Source of the DNA: Pistricoccus aurantiacus
Lineage (GTDB): Bacteria > Pseudomonadota > Gammaproteobacteria > Pseudomonadales > Halomonadaceae
DNA length: 64,000 nucleotides
Direction of reading: 5' to 3'
Assembly (NCBI RefSeq): GCF_007954585.1
Contig: NZ_CP042382.1
Coordinates: 2,790,001-2,854,000 of the forward strand
The position numbers and the translations under genes were made by a program. This document shows, one piece after another, positions 31,269 to 41,185 of the stretch; position 1 is the first letter of the stretch, and each line of letters opens with the position of its first letter. Under the pieces are notes generated by a model. It saw only the letters and a list, made by a program, of their open reading frames with translations, did no database searches and had not been told where the DNA came from.

Positions 31269-32174
31269 ATGATTCACAAGGCCGTATTGCCCGTGGCAGG
31301 GTTTGGAACACGCTGCCTGCCAGCGTCCAAGGCGATTCCCAAGGAAATGATTACCGTAGTCGATAAGCCGGTGATTCAGTACGTGGTGGAAGAAGCGGTC
31401 GCGGCAGGTATCAAGGAAATCGTTCTGGTCACGCATTCCAGCAAGAGCGCTATCGAAAATCACTTCGATCGCAATGTGGAACTGGAAGCCAGTCTGGAAG
31501 CCAAGGGCAAGGACGCCCTGCTCGAACAGGTGCGTCATATCATCCCCGATGACGTCAGTATCATCGCCGTGCGTCAGCACGAGCCCCTGGGGCTCGGCCA
31601 TGCGGTACTTTGCGCTCGACCGGTCATCGGTGACAACGAGCCCTTCGCGGTACTGCTGCCGGATGTGCTGGTCACGGACTGGGGGCTCGAGCGTAACGAT
31701 CTGGCCGGTATGATCGAGGCTTACGACAACGGCGCAAGCGCTCAGATCATGGTCGAGAGCGTTCCCCGGGAGCGAGTCAGCCAGTACGGCATCGTCGATC
31801 TCGGGGGAAAAAACCCTGAAGCCGGCCAATCCGTCGGGCTAGCCGGCATGGTGGAAAAACCCGCGGCGGACGAAGCGCCATCGACTTTGGCGGTGATCGG
31901 GCGCTACCTGCTGCCGGGCTCCATCTTTGCATTACTGGCACAGACGCCTCCCGGCGCCGGCGGAGAGATTCAACTTACCGATGCCGTCGACCGGCTGGGT
32001 CAACAGCAGGGGGTCAGTGCCTATCGCATGCGGGGAGAAACCTACGACTGCGGTCATGCGCTGGGCTACCTGGAGGCCACCCTGGCTTTCGCCAGGCGTC
32101 ATCCCACCTTGGGTGAGGATTTCTCCCGACTGCTTGCGGATTACGCTGGCGATCAAGACGGCGAGGAACGATAG
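31269..32174 (+). CDS. galU: UTP-glucose-1-phosphate uridylyltransferase
   Basis: This 301-residue nucleotidyltransferase makes UDP-glucose for exopolysaccharide, LPS and osmoregulated glucan synthesis. It has the N-terminal VAGFGTRCLPASKAIPKEM (nucleotide loop and activating Lys), the LPDVLV metal-binding motif, MVEKPAADEAPSTLAVIGRY and the C-terminal GETYDCGHALGYLEA. AAGGA precedes ATG 31269. It is followed after two bases by a dehydrogenase-like gene, the classic galU-ugd pairing, although that partner looks catalytically altered. Confidence 0.96.
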   Translation: MIHKAVLPVAGFGTRCLPASKAIPKEMITVVDKPVIQYVVEEAVAAGIKEIVLVTHSSKSAIENHFDRNVELEASLEAKGKDALLEQVRHIIPDDVSIIAVRQHEPLGLGHAVLCARPVIGDNEPFAVLLPDVLVTDWGLERNDLAGMIEAYDNGASAQIMVESVPRERVSQYGIVDLGGKNPEAGQSVGLAGMVEKPAADEAPSTLAVIGRYLLPGSIFALLAQTPPGAGGEIQLTDAVDRLGQQQGVSAYRMRGETYDCGHALGYLEATLAFARRHPTLGEDFSRLLADYAGDQDGEER

Positions 32175-32176
32175 TC

Positions 32177-33475
32177 ATGCGCGTGGTTGTCTATGGTAGC
32201 GAGCTCGCCAGTGCCACCGCCGCCGCGGCGCTGGCAAGCGTCGGTCATCAGGTTCGCTGGTTCACTCATCCCGACTATCCCTGGTCTGCGCTCAAGGAAG
32301 CGGACTGGCTTCAGCGTGAGCCGGAGCTGCTGGGTCAGCTGGAAGCGACACTGACCGGTTCGGCGCTGGCAGTCAGCGACTGTCCGCTGGACGAGCAAGC
32401 ATTCCCCGTGAATGGCGTGGACGTTCTATGGCTCGCTCTGGCGCCGGACCAGCGGGACGCGGCGCAAAAAGTGCTGGCAGTAGTGAAATCGGTTCAGGTC
32501 GCACCGGTAGTGGTCGTCAACAACTCCACCTTTCCCATCGGCGAGACCGAGCGCATGGAAGAGGCCCTCGGCCAACCGGACCAGGTGGCGGTCTCCCTGC
32601 CGGACATGCTGGAGGAAGGCCGGGCCTGGCAGGGCTTTACCCGCCCCGGGCGCTGGCTGCTGGGCAGCGAGAACGATCAGGCCACCGCCCAGGTTCGGGA
32701 GCTGCTGCGCGCCTACAATCGGCGCAGCGAAATCTTTCAGCGCATGCCGCGCCGCGCCGCGGAACTCACCAAGCTGGCCATCAACGGCATGCTGGCTACC
32801 CGTATCAGCTACATGAACGAACTGGCGGGGCTGGCCAGTTCCCTAGGGGTGGATGTGGAGTACGTGCGTCAGGGCATGGGGGCGGACAGCCGCATCGGCT
32901 ACGAATACCTGTATCCGGGCTGCGGGTTCGGCGGGCCGAACTTCTCCCGGGATCTGATGCGCCTGGCAGACGTGCAGTCCGCCAGCGGTCGCCAGTCGCC
33001 GTTGCTCAATCAAGTCCTGGATATCAACGAGCACAAGAAGGAAACCCTGTTCCGCAAGCTGTGGGGGCATTTCCACGGCCGTCTCGAGGGATTGACAGTG
33101 GCTATCTGGGGCGCGGCCTTCAAGCCGGGCACCGCGCGCATCGACCACGCGCCGGTGCTGCCTCTGCTGTATGCGCTGTGGGCCCAGGGCGTCAAGGTGC
33201 GCCTGCACGATCCGGCGGCATTGCCCGCTCTCGCGCAGGAAGTCGGCCGACAGCCGCTGCTGACGTTCTGCCAGGACGATCCCTATCAAGCCTGCGAAGG
33301 GGCGGATGCCCTGATGCTGGTGACGGAATGGCGCTGTTACTGGAATCCGGACTGGAAGCGGCTCAAGGCGCTGCTGAACGCCGATCTGATACTCGACGGA
33401 CGCAACATCTATGACCCCAACTACGTGGCAAGCCGAGGCTTGATCTATCGGGGGATTGGACGACGCGCCGGATAA
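32177..33475 (+). CDS. UDP-glucose 6-dehydrogenase-like protein lacking the catalytic cysteine
   Basis: This 432-residue protein is homologous over its full length to UDP-glucose/GDP-mannose dehydrogenases: N-terminal NAD domain, central helix with ELTKLAINGMLATRISYMNE (conserved Lys and Asn kept), and C-terminal domain with AIWGAAFKPGT. Key positions differ. The active-site motif, normally GFGGSCFPKD, reads GFGGPNFSRD, putting Asn255 where the nucleophilic Cys should be. The dinucleotide motif GxGYVG is replaced by GSELAS, and the conserved TDD after AFKP is TAR. Oxidation to UDP-glucuronate is therefore doubtful. It is encoded two bases after galU, so it could regulate or scaffold, or do different chemistry. 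Confidence 0.85.
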   Translation: MRVVVYGSELASATAAAALASVGHQVRWFTHPDYPWSALKEADWLQREPELLGQLEATLTGSALAVSDCPLDEQAFPVNGVDVLWLALAPDQRDAAQKVLAVVKSVQVAPVVVVNNSTFPIGETERMEEALGQPDQVAVSLPDMLEEGRAWQGFTRPGRWLLGSENDQATAQVRELLRAYNRRSEIFQRMPRRAAELTKLAINGMLATRISYMNELAGLASSLGVDVEYVRQGMGADSRIGYEYLYPGCGFGGPNFSRDLMRLADVQSASGRQSPLLNQVLDINEHKKETLFRKLWGHFHGRLEGLTVAIWGAAFKPGTARIDHAPVLPLLYALWAQGVKVRLHDPAALPALAQEVGRQPLLTFCQDDPYQACEGADALMLVTEWRCYWNPDWKRLKALLNADLILDGRNIYDPNYVASRGLIYRGIGRRAG

Positions 33476-33491: not shown

Positions 33492-33522
33492 GAAACCGGC
33501 TTCGCAATGCGGAGCCGGTTTC
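33492..33522. terminator. Stem-loop terminator between ugd-like gene and sodB
   Basis: GAAACCGGCT (33492-33501) pairs perfectly with AGCCGGTTTC (33513-33522) over an 11-base loop in the 73-base convergent gap. The T-rich tail is poor on the plus strand (TCGTCC), so termination strength is uncertain, but position and stem make a shared terminator likely. Confidence 0.6.
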
Positions 33523-35240: not shown

Positions 35241-37103
35241 ATGACCTATCGAGGCGTAGGGTGTTTTGCGACGCTGCTGAGTCTAGGCTTGGCCCAGTCG
35301 GTTCACGCACTGGATTCGCGCATCGAAGGGCTCGATGGCGCCGTCGAGGATAACGTAAAGATCTATCTGCAAGGTATCGAGGTCGGCCAGTACAGCCGCT
35401 CCAGACTCGAAAACCAGGTGCGCAAGCAGACCCGGGAGGCGATGCGCGCCTACGGGTATTATGAGCCGACCATTACCGATATGACCTTCGTCGAGGATCC
35501 GCCAGAACGGGTCGAACTGACGATCGATCCTGGCCCTCGTGTCAAGATCACCGTTCTCGATCTGACGATAAAAGGCGATGCTCAGGATGACAAGGCTTTC
35601 ACGCAAGCCCTGAAGGACGCCAAGTTGAAGAAGGGCAGGCCCCTGCTTCACAAGCGTTACGATTCGCTGAAAAGCCGCCTGGCAGGCCTTTCCCTGCAGC
35701 GCGGCTACTTCGATTCCCGTTTCACGGATCAGCGCATGGAAGTGCGTCCTTGGGAGGAGAGCGCGCGCATCTACCTCACCCTGGATAGCGGTCCACGCTA
35801 TCGTTTCGGCGAGGTGTACTATCACGGCAGTCAGATCGACGAGAAGAGATTGCGGAAGATGCTGCCCTTCAAGCCAGGGGATCTTTATCTCGCGGAGGAA
35901 CTTGCCGAATACAATCAGCGCCTCTCCCAGAGCAACTGGTTTTCCGCCATGGCGATTCGCCCACAGTTGGGTGGCGCCGGAAATCTTGCCCTTTCAAGTC
36001 AAACGAATTGGTATGATCAGACAGCGCTGGAAGGCGACGCGGTTCGCTCGAGGCCTGACATTTCCAGCGAGCCGCGCATCAGCCAGTCGGCGCTGATATC
36101 CGCCAGCAATCTTCAGGCGCCGGAAGATCTCGCGGTGCCCATCGACGTGCAATTGACGCCGGCGGCACGGCACAATTTCGAGATCGGCGTGGGCTATGCC
36201 ACGGATGTCGGACCGCGCCTGCATTTCTCCTGGGAACAGCCCTGGTTGAACAGCGACGGCGATAGCTTGAACCACGACCTCTTCTTGTCCGCGCCGGAAC
36301 AACGCTTTACCGGCGAATACATCATACCCTTGGAAGACCCGCTCAAGGACAGCTATCGCCTGCAGTACGGCTTTCGTAGCAAGGACGACAACGATACTCA
36401 AAGTCTTGAGGCGGCGGTGGAACTGGCCCGGCGCTGGGAGTTCGACAACGGCTGGATACAGAGCCTCTATCTGCGCACTCTCTACGAGGACTTCACCCAG
36501 GGTGAGCAGGAAGACAAGGTGCTGCTTTACTATCCCGGCATCAGCTGGACCCGTGTTCGCACCCGTAACCCGCGTTTTCCTACCTGGGGAGATCGGCAGC
36601 GGTTGGCCCTGGAGTATTCCGATACGTTCTGGGGCTCCGATGCCACCTTCTTCCGCACCACCGCGGATACCCAATGGATACGTATGCTGGGAGACGACCA
36701 TCGTTTTGTCGGGCGCATGGGGCTGGGCGCCATCTCAACCGAGGATTTCGACAAGATACCGCCGTCGCTGCGCTTTTTCGCCGGCGGTGACAGCAGCGTG
36801 CGGGGCTACAGCTATGAAAGCCTGGCGCCTCGGGATGACAGCGGTAAACTGCGCGGCGGCCAGCAGCTTTTTACCGCCAGCGTGGAGGCTCAGCGCCGTA
36901 TCACCGGCGACTGGTGGGGCGCCGCCTTCGTCGATACCGGCGATGCCTTTGACGACTGGTGGCCCAATGAGTTGAATACCGGCGCAGGGCTTGGCGTGCG
37001 CTGGGTGTCGCCTGTCGGGCCTATCCGTTTCGATATCGCGCATCCCTTCGACGACGAAGACAACTCCTGGCGCATCCATTTCGCCATAGGACCCGAATTT
37101 TGA
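35241..37103 (+). CDS. tamA: Translocation and assembly module subunit TamA
   Basis: This 620-residue outer-membrane Omp85-family protein works with TamB in envelope protein or phospholipid traffic. A signal peptide (about 1-23, ending SVHA) precedes three POTRA domains (about 25-260) and a 16-strand beta barrel (from about 310) with the family motifs RFFAGGDSSVRGY (about 512-524), VRWVSPVGPIRFDIAHP and a C-terminal Phe beta-signal (HFAIGPEF). Between POTRA3 and the barrel lies a linker of about 50 residues, rich in Ser and Gln, that seems longer than in E. coli TamA (577 residues). The tamB start overlaps its stop. Confidence 0.94.
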   Translation: MTYRGVGCFATLLSLGLAQSVHALDSRIEGLDGAVEDNVKIYLQGIEVGQYSRSRLENQVRKQTREAMRAYGYYEPTITDMTFVEDPPERVELTIDPGPRVKITVLDLTIKGDAQDDKAFTQALKDAKLKKGRPLLHKRYDSLKSRLAGLSLQRGYFDSRFTDQRMEVRPWEESARIYLTLDSGPRYRFGEVYYHGSQIDEKRLRKMLPFKPGDLYLAEELAEYNQRLSQSNWFSAMAIRPQLGGAGNLALSSQTNWYDQTALEGDAVRSRPDISSEPRISQSALISASNLQAPEDLAVPIDVQLTPAARHNFEIGVGYATDVGPRLHFSWEQPWLNSDGDSLNHDLFLSAPEQRFTGEYIIPLEDPLKDSYRLQYGFRSKDDNDTQSLEAAVELARRWEFDNGWIQSLYLRTLYEDFTQGEQEDKVLLYYPGISWTRVRTRNPRFPTWGDRQRLALEYSDTFWGSDATFFRTTADTQWIRMLGDDHRFVGRMGLGAISTEDFDKIPPSLRFFAGGDSSVRGYSYESLAPRDDSGKLRGGQQLFTASVEAQRRITGDWWGAAFVDTGDAFDDWWPNELNTGAGLGVRWVSPVGPIRFDIAHPFDDEDNSWRIHFAIGPEF

Positions 37104-40100
37104 TCTGGATACTGCTTCGAACACTGATCTGGCTGCCTATCTTTTTGATTGGCTTGATTCTTTTTCTATTGGGCTTGGGACTTTCCCCTTGGGGAACGGC
37201 TTGGCTGCTGGAGCAGGGCCAGAATCGTGGCTGGTATAGTTTCGAAAGTGTCGAAGGTAGCCCTCTCGATGACTTGGTCATCAAGAATCTCGAACTCACC
37301 AGTGGACCGGTGCAGGGCACCATCGCGCATCTGAAAATCGATTGGGCGAAGGATTGCGTGCTTTCCGGAAAGCTTTGCCTCGATAAGCTGGATGTGGACG
37401 GGGCGGATCTCGCTCTGGTGGCCGGCGACCAGCCCGCGGAGCAAGAGCCGGCCCAGGAAGACGAGGCGGCGGGCGGCGACATCATTCTGCCGTTTCCTAT
37501 CGAGATTCGTGACGTCAACCTGGATAACGTCAGTTTTCGCCTGGCGGATGGCACCCGTATCGCCTGGCGGGAATTCTCCACCGGGGCCACTCTCGAGAAT
37601 AATACTTTCGAGCTATCACCTACCCACTGGCGGGAGATTCTGGTCACGCTGCCGGTCACTTCCGGCCAGGCGTTGACGGCCGCCCCGGCCAGCGAAGCAT
37701 CCACCGAGGAAGGGGATTCCACGCCGGAGACGCTGATCGCTGCGCCCATCGACGCCAGCATCGCGCTTCGGTCGCCGCTTCCCGCCAGCGTTGCGCCGAC
37801 TCTGGAAACCGCCAAACAGGTGCCTCTGGATGAGCGCGAACGGCTGGAACTGCCGGAGGTTCATCTGCCGATCCAGATCGAAGCGCCCAGGATTGCCGTC
37901 GAGAACCTGCGGTTCAAGGCGCCGGCGGATACCTTTGTGGTCGATCGGCTGGAACTGGCGCTGAGCGGTCACGACAGCACCGTCACGATCGAACCTCTGT
38001 CCGTGAGTTCCCCCATGGCGGATGCGGCGCTGGTGGCTCAGGTCGAGCTACAAGGCGATTATCCCTTGACCGCCAGCTTTTCCAGCGAGCTCTATCTTCC
38101 CGAGCGCATGCCGGCGCTTTCCGGACAGCAGATGGAGTTGGAGCTCACCGGCAGCCTGGCGGATCTGAACCTGCGCTTGGAAACCCAGGGCCCTGTCACC
38201 GCCAACCTGAGCGCAACGCTGGACGCGCTGGATCCAACCTTGCCCTTTGACGCCAGCCTCGAGGCATCGTCGCTACGCTGGCCCTTGGAAGGAGCGGATA
38301 CGCAGGTCGCTGACGAACAGGCGAAGAAAGAAGAGGCAAAGGAAGATGCCAAGAAAGAAAACGCCGAGGAAGGTGGCCCTGACAGCACGCCTCAGGAGCC
38401 TTACCGGGTCAAGAACCTGGCGCTTGAGGCCAGGGGCAGCCTGACCGGCTACCGGACTTCACTCCAACTCAGCGCTTCCGGCCCGCAGTTCGACGAGACT
38501 CGGCTTTTACTGGAGGGAGAAGGGGATCTTTCCCGGTTTGCCTGGCAGCCTCTCGAATTGACCACCGCGGATGGCGGCAGCCTGACCAGTCAGGGCAAGG
38601 TGGACTGGCAGGATGCGCTCAAGCTCGAGACCAGCCTGACCCTGAACGGCCTCGACCCCGGCGCCTTTACCGAAGCGGTGCAGGGCAATTTGAACGGCAA
38701 CGCCCGGCTGAGCTTCACGCAAACCGACGCCGGTTGGCGGGTCGCGCTGCCGACGCTGGATATCGATGGTGAACTGCAGGATCTACCGCTGTCTCTCGAA
38801 GCCAGCCTCGCCGGCAATAGCGACATGCATTGGGATGTGGATCGGCTGCTGCTGAACCAGGGTGAAAATCGCCTGACGGCTCGAGGGCAAATAGCGGAGC
38901 GGATCTCCCTGAACGGTGAGATTCGCGCGCCGGCGCTGCAGGCGATTTCGCCGGAGCTCGATGGTGTTCTGCAAGGAGATTTTGCCTTGGGCGGCACCTT
39001 GAAGGCGCCTCGAATCGACGTCGATCTGCAGGGAAGCGATCTGCGCTTCGCCGATAATCGGCTCGATTCGCTTGCTCTGGACGCGAATGTAGAAGGCGCA
39101 GAGGATCCAAAACTGGATATCACCCTGAGGATTCGACAGCTGGAAGCGGCGGGGCAGCGCCTGGACAGCGTCGACCTGACCCTGGACGGCAAACTGTCCG
39201 ATCATCGCCTTGATTTGAACAGCCAGGCGGCGCCCGACATGCCATTTTCTCGAGCGGAGCTGGTTCTGGTCGGCGGGTTGAACAAGCAGCGAACTCGCTA
39301 CAAGGGACAGCTTTCTCCACTGAATGTCGACACGCAATATGGCGATCTGAGCCTGGATGACCCGCTTGATTTCACGGCGAATCTCGACGAAGGCAGTATC
39401 GGCGTGCAGCCCTTTTGCCTGCGCCGCCAGCAGGGCGGCGGGCTCTGTCTGACCGAGCCCCTGGAAGCCTCCGCCAAGCAGGGCAAGGCGACTCTTGCGC
39501 TCAGACAGCTGCCCATGTCGATGTTTGCGGCCAGCGTGCCGGAAGGCTGGGATCTCGACGGCGAGACCAATGGCGATATTCAAGCCAGCTGGTCCGGGGG
39601 CGGCAGCCAGTGGCAGCTGGCAAGCGATTTCAAGAGCGAGCTTGGGCTGCAGGGCACCGACGCCTATGGACAACCCTGGTCGCTGCCCGGCTCGAGCCTG
39701 AACATCGAGATAGATGCCACTCAGCGCCAGGCCAAGGCCGACCTGGAGTTGAGCCTGGCGGAAGCGGGGCGGCTACTGCTCGATACCACCATCGATGATC
39801 CACAGAACATCGGCTCCCTCAGCGGCGAGCTGCGTCTCGAGGACATCCGTCTGGAACCGTATCGGCGCCTGATCGCCGGCATGGAAAAGCTCAACGGCAC
39901 CCTGGGCGGCCGAGTCGCCATCGGCGGCAATCTCGAAGCCCCCAGTCTCAACGGGGATATTCGCCTGACAGGGCTGGAGGCCAAGGGTGCGGAAGTCCCG
40001 GTAGAGGTCGAGGACGGGGAGATCAACGTCAATCTCGACGGTAATCAGGGCGCCATCGATGGCTATATCGATGGGGAGGAAGGTCGTCTGAACCTGGACG

Positions 40101-41185
40101 GCAGCGCCGCCTGGCCAAGCCCGTCCGAATGGCGAGCGCAAATCGACATCGACGGTCAGGAAGATCCGCTGCTGGTGATACTGCCGGATTTCGGCAGGCT
40201 CAAGATCGCACCGGATTTGCGTGTCCAGGTCGACCCCGAACTGCTCAAGGTGCGCGGGCAGGTCAGAATACCCTGGGCGCGACTCGAAGTCGGCAAGATC
40301 CCGCCTTCCGCGGTCAGCCCCAGCGGAGACGAAGTCATCATCACCCGGGAAGACGATCGTCGCGCCGCGCAAGAAGCAGAGGAACGCCGCCGAGCGCTCG
40401 AGAACGGGCAGGCTCAGGTCGGTGAATCCACCTCCCAGGCCCTGGCGAAGGCCGGCATGGCCACGGACATACGGATTGATCTGGTGCTGGGGCCGGACAT
40501 GCAGCTGGAAGCCTACGGCCTTGAATCCGGATTGCGTGGCAACCTGCAGGTGCGTCAACAGAACGGTCCGGTACAGCTGTTTGGCGACGTCAATCTGGAG
40601 GAGGGGCGTTTTCGCGCCTATGGCCAGGATCTGTTGATTCGCCAGGGCCAGATCACCTTCAGCGGCCCTGCGGGACAGCCGCTCCTGCAGTTCGAAGCCA
40701 TACGCAACCCGGAAAAGACCGAGGACCAGGTGATTGCCGGCTTGCGGGTGACCGGCCCTGCGGAGGCGCCGAACCTGGAGATATTCTCGGAGCCTGCCAT
40801 GAACGAGAGCCGTGCGCTTTCCTATCTGCTGCGCGGGCGGGCGCCGGAAAATACCGGGGACACCGGTGGCGCCTTGACCTCGGCACTGATCGGCCTGTCG
40901 ATTTCCCGTACCGGCGGCGCCGTCAGTCAGGTAGGTCAGGCCTTCGGCGTCGACGATCTCACCCTGGATACCGCCGGCAGCGGTGAGGATAGTCAGGTAG
41001 TGGTACGTGGCCAACTGACCGACGACCTGCAGATCAGCTACGGCGTCGGCGTTTTCTCACCCATTGCCGAGCTGACGCTGCGTTATTCTCTCTGGCGAAA
41101 TCTGTACCTGCAGGCGGTTTCCGGCGCGGCCCAGGCGGTGGACCTGATTTACAGTTTCCAATTGGGCAAGCCTGATGGCGAATGA
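37100..41185 (+). CDS. tamB: Translocation and assembly module subunit TamB (AsmA-like)
   Basis: This 1361-residue protein is anchored in the inner membrane by an N-terminal helix (about 2-25, WILLRTLIWLPIFLIGLILFL-like; landmark LLRTLIWLPIF) and spans the periplasm as a long beta-taco of repeated strands, ending with the conserved DUF490 C-terminal domain (about 1000-1361, with LGPDMQLEAYGLESGLRGNL and YSLWRNLYLQAVSG). It is thought to move phospholipids or assist outer-membrane protein assembly with TamA. Translation begins at TTG 37100, overlapping the tamA stop (TTGA); no ATG is near. An unusual Lys/Glu/Ala-rich low-complexity insertion sits near residues 405-432. Slightly longer than E. 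coli TamB (1259). Confidence 0.93.
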   Translation: MIWILLRTLIWLPIFLIGLILFLLGLGLSPWGTAWLLEQGQNRGWYSFESVEGSPLDDLVIKNLELTSGPVQGTIAHLKIDWAKDCVLSGKLCLDKLDVDGADLALVAGDQPAEQEPAQEDEAAGGDIILPFPIEIRDVNLDNVSFRLADGTRIAWREFSTGATLENNTFELSPTHWREILVTLPVTSGQALTAAPASEASTEEGDSTPETLIAAPIDASIALRSPLPASVAPTLETAKQVPLDERERLELPEVHLPIQIEAPRIAVENLRFKAPADTFVVDRLELALSGHDSTVTIEPLSVSSPMADAALVAQVELQGDYPLTASFSSELYLPERMPALSGQQMELELTGSLADLNLRLETQGPVTANLSATLDALDPTLPFDASLEASSLRWPLEGADTQVADEQAKKEEAKEDAKKENAEEGGPDSTPQEPYRVKNLALEARGSLTGYRTSLQLSASGPQFDETRLLLEGEGDLSRFAWQPLELTTADGGSLTSQGKVDWQDALKLETSLTLNGLDPGAFTEAVQGNLNGNARLSFTQTDAGWRVALPTLDIDGELQDLPLSLEASLAGNSDMHWDVDRLLLNQGENRLTARGQIAERISLNGEIRAPALQAISPELDGVLQGDFALGGTLKAPRIDVDLQGSDLRFADNRLDSLALDANVEGAEDPKLDITLRIRQLEAAGQRLDSVDLTLDGKLSDHRLDLNSQAAPDMPFSRAELVLVGGLNKQRTRYKGQLSPLNVDTQYGDLSLDDPLDFTANLDEGSIGVQPFCLRRQQGGGLCLTEPLEASAKQGKATLALRQLPMSMFAASVPEGWDLDGETNGDIQASWSGGGSQWQLASDFKSELGLQGTDAYGQPWSLPGSSLNIEIDATQRQAKADLELSLAEAGRLLLDTTIDDPQNIGSLSGELRLEDIRLEPYRRLIAGMEKLNGTLGGRVAIGGNLEAPSLNGDIRLTGLEAKGAEVPVEVEDGEINVNLDGNQGAIDGYIDGEEGRLNLDGSAAWPSPSEWRAQIDIDGQEDPLLVILPDFGRLKIAPDLRVQVDPELLKVRGQVRIPWARLEVGKIPPSAVSPSGDEVIITREDDRRAAQEAEERRRALENGQAQVGESTSQALAKAGMATDIRIDLVLGPDMQLEAYGLESGLRGNLQVRQQNGPVQLFGDVNLEEGRFRAYGQDLLIRQGQITFSGPAGQPLLQFEAIRNPEKTEDQVIAGLRVTGPAEAPNLEIFSEPAMNESRALSYLLRGRAPENTGDTGGALTSALIGLSISRTGGAVSQVGQAFGVDDLTLDTAGSGEDSQVVVRGQLTDDLQISYGVGVFSPIAELTLRYSLWRNLYLQAVSGAAQAVDLIYSFQLGKPDGE

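Follow-up and report, generated by a model that had tools for sequence, protein, structure and literature searches.

An ancient galU-linked lineage of apparently inactive UDP-glucose dehydrogenase homologues in Gammaproteobacteria, with a possible role in UDP-glucose sensing

The question raised by this locus is what a full-length homologue of UDP-glucose dehydrogenase (UGDH), lacking the catalytic cysteine and the dinucleotide-binding motif of the enzyme, may be doing directly behind galU. The gene, here called pseudo-ugd (product, pseudo-UGDH), lies in a 64,000-nucleotide stretch of the Pistricoccus aurantiacus chromosome, to which we refer as the window, and the coordinates of its features are collected in Table 1. 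The original prediction, made from the DNA letters of the window, had placed the start of the gene two bases after galU and had noted neither frameshift nor stop codon, and both points hold on the open reading frames, with the ATG 2 nt past the galU stop codon and an uninterrupted frame. galU and pseudo-ugd are probably co-translated. A 14-bp inverted repeat separates pseudo-ugd from the convergently transcribed superoxide dismutase gene and likely serves as a bidirectional terminator at the end of what looks like a two-gene unit; a consensus terminator scan made no call at this repeat, and the promoter and terminator scan at the window locus was uninformative. A defence-system search gave no match. 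Further along the window, genes for a 620-aa outer-membrane-type protein (35241-37103) and a 1361-aa protein (37100-41185) overlap at their ends and, judged by eye, resemble a TamA/TamB pair.

Table 1. The galU/pseudo-ugd locus and the diagnostic residues of pseudo-UGDH (window positions)
Feature	Position	Strand	Basis
galU, UTP-glucose-1-phosphate uridylyltransferase, 301 aa, upstream partner gene	31269..32174	+	ORF; TIGR01099 338.8 bits vs cut-off 326.8
pseudo-UDP-glucose dehydrogenase, 432 aa	32177..33475	+	ORF; Pfam; AF2 model
GSELAS, eroded GxGxxG dinucleotide loop, residues 7-12; Tyr10 replaced by Leu	32195..32212	+	alignment
Lys199 and Asn203 (SpUGDH Lys204/Asn208), long dimer helix	32771..32785	+	alignment
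Arg239 (SpUGDH Arg244), partner-subunit glucose contact	32891..32893	+	alignment; role per PMC4794789, PMC3184952
GFGGPNFSRD, former active-site loop (canonical GYGGSCFPKD)	32924..32953	+	alignment
Asn255 in place of catalytic Cys260	32939-32941	+	alignment
K316-PGTARI-D323: diphosphate Lys kept; Arg327 replaced by Asp323, Asp325 by Arg321	33122..33145	+	alignment
DGRN motif with Arg409, retained	33395..33406	+	alignment, Arg 55/55
14-bp inverted repeat between pseudo-ugd and superoxide dismutase gene	33492..33522	.	fold -26.5 kcal/mol

Pseudo-UGDH is homologous to UGDH along its whole length, with Burkholderia BceC as the top solved relative (E 2e-68). The central domain (PF00984, 94 bits) and the UDP-binding domain (PF03720, 81.9 bits) score above their cut-offs, the NAD domain (PF03721) scores under the Pfam cut-off, and the NCBIfam nucleotide sugar dehydrogenase model TIGR03026 is passed with 197 against a cut-off of 189.8. 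An AF2 model built from 64 alignment rows (pLDDT 94.2, pTM 0.87) predicts a long dimer helix at residues 192-223 and a three-domain fold that matches solved UGDH, with a TM score of 0.91 against BceC UGDH (2y0e), the input alignment having held canonical UGDH rows, which aids domain placement. A 22-row model was rejected for its wrong domain arrangement (TM 0.47). In a set of 22 members of the clade, every protein carries both PF00984 and PF03720.

The roles of the invariant UGDH residues in UDP-glucose contact, NAD binding and chemistry have been assigned, with Arg327 forming a salt bridge to the NAD pyrophosphate and Asp29 being the NAD ribose Asp (PMC4794789; PMC3184952). When these positions were surveyed in 55 diverse pseudo-UGDH members from several families against 35 canonical UGDH, the covalent and redox residues Cys260, Tyr10 and Asp29 were each found in 0/55 members. 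The glycines of the dinucleotide loop are rarely left (Gly9 in 3/55, Gly12 in 5/55), and Thr83 (3/55), Arg327 (3/55) and Lys263 (5/55) are also mostly lost. The UDP-glucose contacts, on the other hand, are kept, namely Lys204 in 54 of the 55 members and Gly257, Lys320 and Arg244, the last acting in trans, in all of them, as are the structural residues Glu201, Asn219 and Asn287 (each 55/55). We take Arg409 of the DGRN motif to belong to the UDP-sugar site as well. Retention is intermediate for Glu145 (36/55), Asn208 (31/55) and Asp264 (25/55), with Asp264 present in 103 of the 113 galU-linked copies, a set drawn mostly from Halomonadaceae with some from family f44. The clade also has invariants of its own, Trp296 (55/55, variable in canonical UGDH) and Arg209 (53/55). 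The window protein reads TARID where canonical UGDH has TDDMR; Arg321 and Asp323 each occur in 110/113 of the galU-linked set and, as aligned, are in this branch the charge-swapped counterpart of the canonical Asp325/Arg327 pair.

The alignment thus bears out what had been read from the single gene, that is, replacement of the Cys nucleophile by Asn255, change of GxGxxG to GSELAS and of TDD to TAR, and preservation of the Lys/Asn helix. Asn255 itself proved not to be conserved: the 113 distinct copies have N (76), S (22), G (8), H (6) or T (1), Ala joins these residues across the clade, and the conserved feature is the absence of Cys, which occupies the position in 0/113 distinct copies and 0/55 diverse members. 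The loss is therefore no isolated mutation of the window gene, and its recurrence goes well past what chance would give. A shifted alignment that would bring another Cys into the active site is excluded too, since no alternative Cys fits and the nearby Cys249 (PGC-GFGG), which is not in all pseudo-UGDH copies, coexists with the true nucleophile in canonical UGDH.

These residue patterns make it well supported that catalysis has been lost in the pseudo-UGDH clade: with neither nucleophile nor hydrolytic Tyr nor NAD+ site, the protein cannot perform the four-electron UGDH reaction by the known mechanism. Judging from the contacts that remain, the protein probably still binds UDP-glucose. We hypothesize, with belief and doubt roughly in balance, that this ancient, selected pseudo-dehydrogenase lineage of Gammaproteobacteria works at the GalU/Pgi node as a UDP-glucose sensor or as a regulator. 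In such a mechanism, pseudo-UGDH would form a homodimer that binds the UDP-glucose produced by GalU, the product of the gene just upstream. Its bound or unbound state would serve as a signal by which it senses the formation of UDP-glucose or regulates it through feedback, and the target would most likely be GalU, or Pgi where pgi is the neighbour. The UDP-sugar site may have decayed in some lineages, and sugar binding may not be universal across the clade, since Asn208 or Glu145 is missing from some members and at least one very diverged member (L275; genome G321, family f37) is also without the Lys204 equivalent and the DGRN Arg.

The single-gene view of the original prediction can be widened considerably, as the clade extends beyond this family and has pgi in addition to galU among its neighbours. 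Judged by best match, 20 of the 24 sampled Halomonadaceae genera have an orthologue of the window gene, including Onishia, Franzmannia, Modicisalibacter, Litchfieldella, Aidingimonas, Salinicola, Chromohalobacter, Vreelandella, Billgrantia and Halomonas. Genus g5 has no window-type orthologue and carries only the related branch B (GFGGxAF, Cys replaced by Ala), which is found in the Halomonadaceae genera g3 and g5 and in family f38, and genera g16, g17 and g18 have only canonical or E. coli-type UGDH. Outside Halomonadaceae, members are present in families f44, f37, f38 and f26 of the same order and in f99, f148 and f200 of other gammaproteobacterial orders. A signature scan of 398 Pseudomonadota genomes, with a strict pattern that distant members may escape, detected no member of the clade outside Gammaproteobacteria; its only matches there (G1152, G1295 and G1084) were rejected as canonical proteins with Cys.

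In a maximum-likelihood tree of 65 proteins, with canonical rows taken from the same genomes and orders as the pseudo-UGDH members, the 37 members group together in a single clade with support 100/100, and its stem measures 0.85 changes per site. Very long outgroup rows leave the exact sister group unsure and the split between pseudo-UGDH and canonical proteins firm, and on this topology the clade is of single and ancient origin. A further inactive-looking UGDH (L208/L232; G584:C1:2072684-2074006) falls inside the canonical clade, on a long branch beside a normal f38 copy, with GYGGSFFPHD (Cys replaced by Phe) and IDDLC where canonical UGDH has TDDMR; by its placement in the tree, it is an independent loss of the nucleophile.

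That the gene is under selection as a protein, as had been proposed, is borne out by a median dN/dS of 0.22, against 0.20 for the adjacent galU (1264 pairs with dS 0.15-1.2, by NG86, a simple method, the pairs not being independent); the closest pseudo-ugd pairs give about 0.01-0.1. Whatever the exact value, these ratios indicate that pseudo-ugd is under purifying selection and is not decaying. In one complete genome (G010; L039/L081), pseudo-ugd is broken near its 3' end by stop codons or a frame break, and the upstream galU is intact.

The gene neighbourhood is similarly persistent, in keeping with the suggestion that the link to galU hints at the role of the protein: in 108 of the 124 distinct loci, a galU on the same strand precedes pseudo-ugd by less than 100 nt, with a median gap of 4 nt, and 13 loci have no galU within the fetched flank. 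Among 20 long loci from other families and branch B, a cluster gene identified as glucose-6-phosphate isomerase (pgi) is present in 18 and galU in 14, while galE and Wzc-type genes appear in several long loci. In f99, f148 and f200, pgi is immediately 5' of pseudo-ugd (L234-L238). In the window genome, pgi is not near galU, and two glucose-6-phosphate isomerase genes are found elsewhere (L277/L278; G000:C1:3490188 and 3710847). Three genomes (G016, G017 and G036), of genera without pseudo-ugd, have nevertheless kept galU, and GalU activity therefore does not require pseudo-UGDH.

The window chromosome also encodes a WecC-like protein and a second, canonical ugd (GTGYVG, GYGGSCFPKD; G000:C1:2920627-2921943), the presence of which the original prediction had suggested checking. 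True UGDH in Halomonadaceae is of two types, the TuaD/BceC type and a 388-aa E. coli type, which largely substitute for each other across the family: the former is absent from 61 of the 250 family genomes, 52 of which carry the distant E. coli type. G016, one of the 61, is also without pseudo-ugd. Nearly all Halomonadaceae genomes with pseudo-ugd carry one true type, and an apparent group of 57 genomes with pseudo-ugd and without UGDH was rejected, as nearly all of them have the 388-aa E. coli-type enzyme. Apart from low-completeness assemblies, the genomes in which neither type was found are G041, at 98% completeness, the branch B genome G043, at 99%, and G075, at 95%; G047, G117 and G241 were left out of this count for additional UGDH-like matches of ambiguous kind.

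As an alternative to sensing at the GalU/Pgi node, pseudo-UGDH might join the cell's active UGDH in a heterodimer or hexamer, as a regulatory or structural subunit, and tune the production of UDP-glucuronate. The retained fold and dimer helix and the near-universal presence of a true UGDH of either type in Halomonadaceae carriers are compatible with this role. However, no single UGDH type tracks pseudo-ugd, with the TuaD/BceC type so often replaced by the E. coli type, and a fixed UGDH partner is therefore unlikely; moreover, two genomes at least 98% complete (G041 and G043) and G075 are without either type, and the pseudo-ugd genes adjoin galU and pgi rather than a true ugd. We regard this explanation as unlikely. 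Slightly less probable still is a scaffold that joins GalU and/or Pgi, perhaps with a downstream glycosyltransferase, and in which the UDP-sugar site would persist chiefly because folding needs it. The conserved linkage to galU and pgi speaks for such a scaffold, as do the clade invariants Trp296 and Arg209, which could build a new surface. Yet the side chains that reach the ligand are kept, including Arg244 in trans, and this exceeds what folding would be expected to need.

Regulation, scaffolding and altered catalysis had all been offered in the original prediction, and among them a regulatory or sensing role would fit the retained UDP-glucose site best, whereas altered catalysis appears the least likely, because the nucleophile position has acquired no new fixed residue and nothing is left of the NAD site. 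An enzyme that converts a UDP-sugar by a new reaction independent of NAD would account for the kept sugar site and for Asp264 where it is retained, but the residue at the nucleophile position is free to vary, about half of the clade lacks Asn208 and about half lacks Asp264, and the former active site has gained no newly fixed polar residue; we consider it improbable. The idea of a decaying paralogue heading for loss could point to the one broken copy and to the genera without the gene, but it is largely refuted by purifying selection equal to that on galU and by retention across a deep clade and most of the sampled Halomonadaceae genera, and we give it hardly any weight.

Taken together, pseudo-UGDH belongs to the NDP-sugar dehydrogenase superfamily by descent and fold, while the defining active-site features are absent, and it should therefore not be named UDP-glucose dehydrogenase. 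Compared with TuaD/BceC-type UGDH (EC 1.1.1.22; BceC PDB 2y0c/2y0e), it has the same fold, domain order, dimer helix and UDP-glucose contacts at about 33-38% identity, and differs in having no catalytic Cys, Tyr10, GxGxxG, NAD ribose Asp or NAD pyrophosphate Arg. In Acinetobacter K loci, a galU-ugd-gpi-gne-pgm module is known, and its Ugd is taken as an active enzyme. The loci described here resemble this module in combining galU, an ugd-like gene and pgi, in some loci with galE and Wzc-type genes, but differ in that the ugd-like gene is inactive.

Other likenesses are analogies rather than evidence of membership. GalF of enteric bacteria is an inactivated GalU paralogue with residual activity (PMC4643126). 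Like pseudo-UGDH, it derives from an enzyme that handles UDP-glucose and has been kept beside the active pathway after inactivation, although it belongs to the GalU family and retains that activity. For OpgH and UgtP, UDP-glucose signals nutrient status (PMC3723540), and a similar way of working is proposed here, but they have no homology to pseudo-UGDH and are active glucosyltransferases acting on FtsZ. Our literature search, with most subscription journals outside its coverage, found no paper on such a pseudo-UGDH, and this established, inactive branch within a known family is undescribed in the literature searched.

Somewhat more tentatively, the clade could be a hitherto undescribed family of UDP-glucose receptors that arose from UGDH a single time and then reached several gammaproteobacterial families, setting the supply of UDP-glucose through binding of the GalU product and control of GalU or Pgi. 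The routes to capsules, LPS, glycogen and osmotic glucans part at UDP-glucose, and a lineage this deep, under selection and catalytically dead, within a textbook enzyme family would point to a hidden control of this metabolite. As it passes the TIGR03026 cut-off, pseudo-UGDH is prone to being mislabelled as a nucleotide sugar dehydrogenase, and pathway models and Halomonas strain engineering, for example for hyaluronan production (PMC13296553), could take it for the enzyme that makes UDP-glucuronate. The locus thus raises a testable question, namely whether a UGDH stripped of its redox site may have become a receptor for UDP-glucose.
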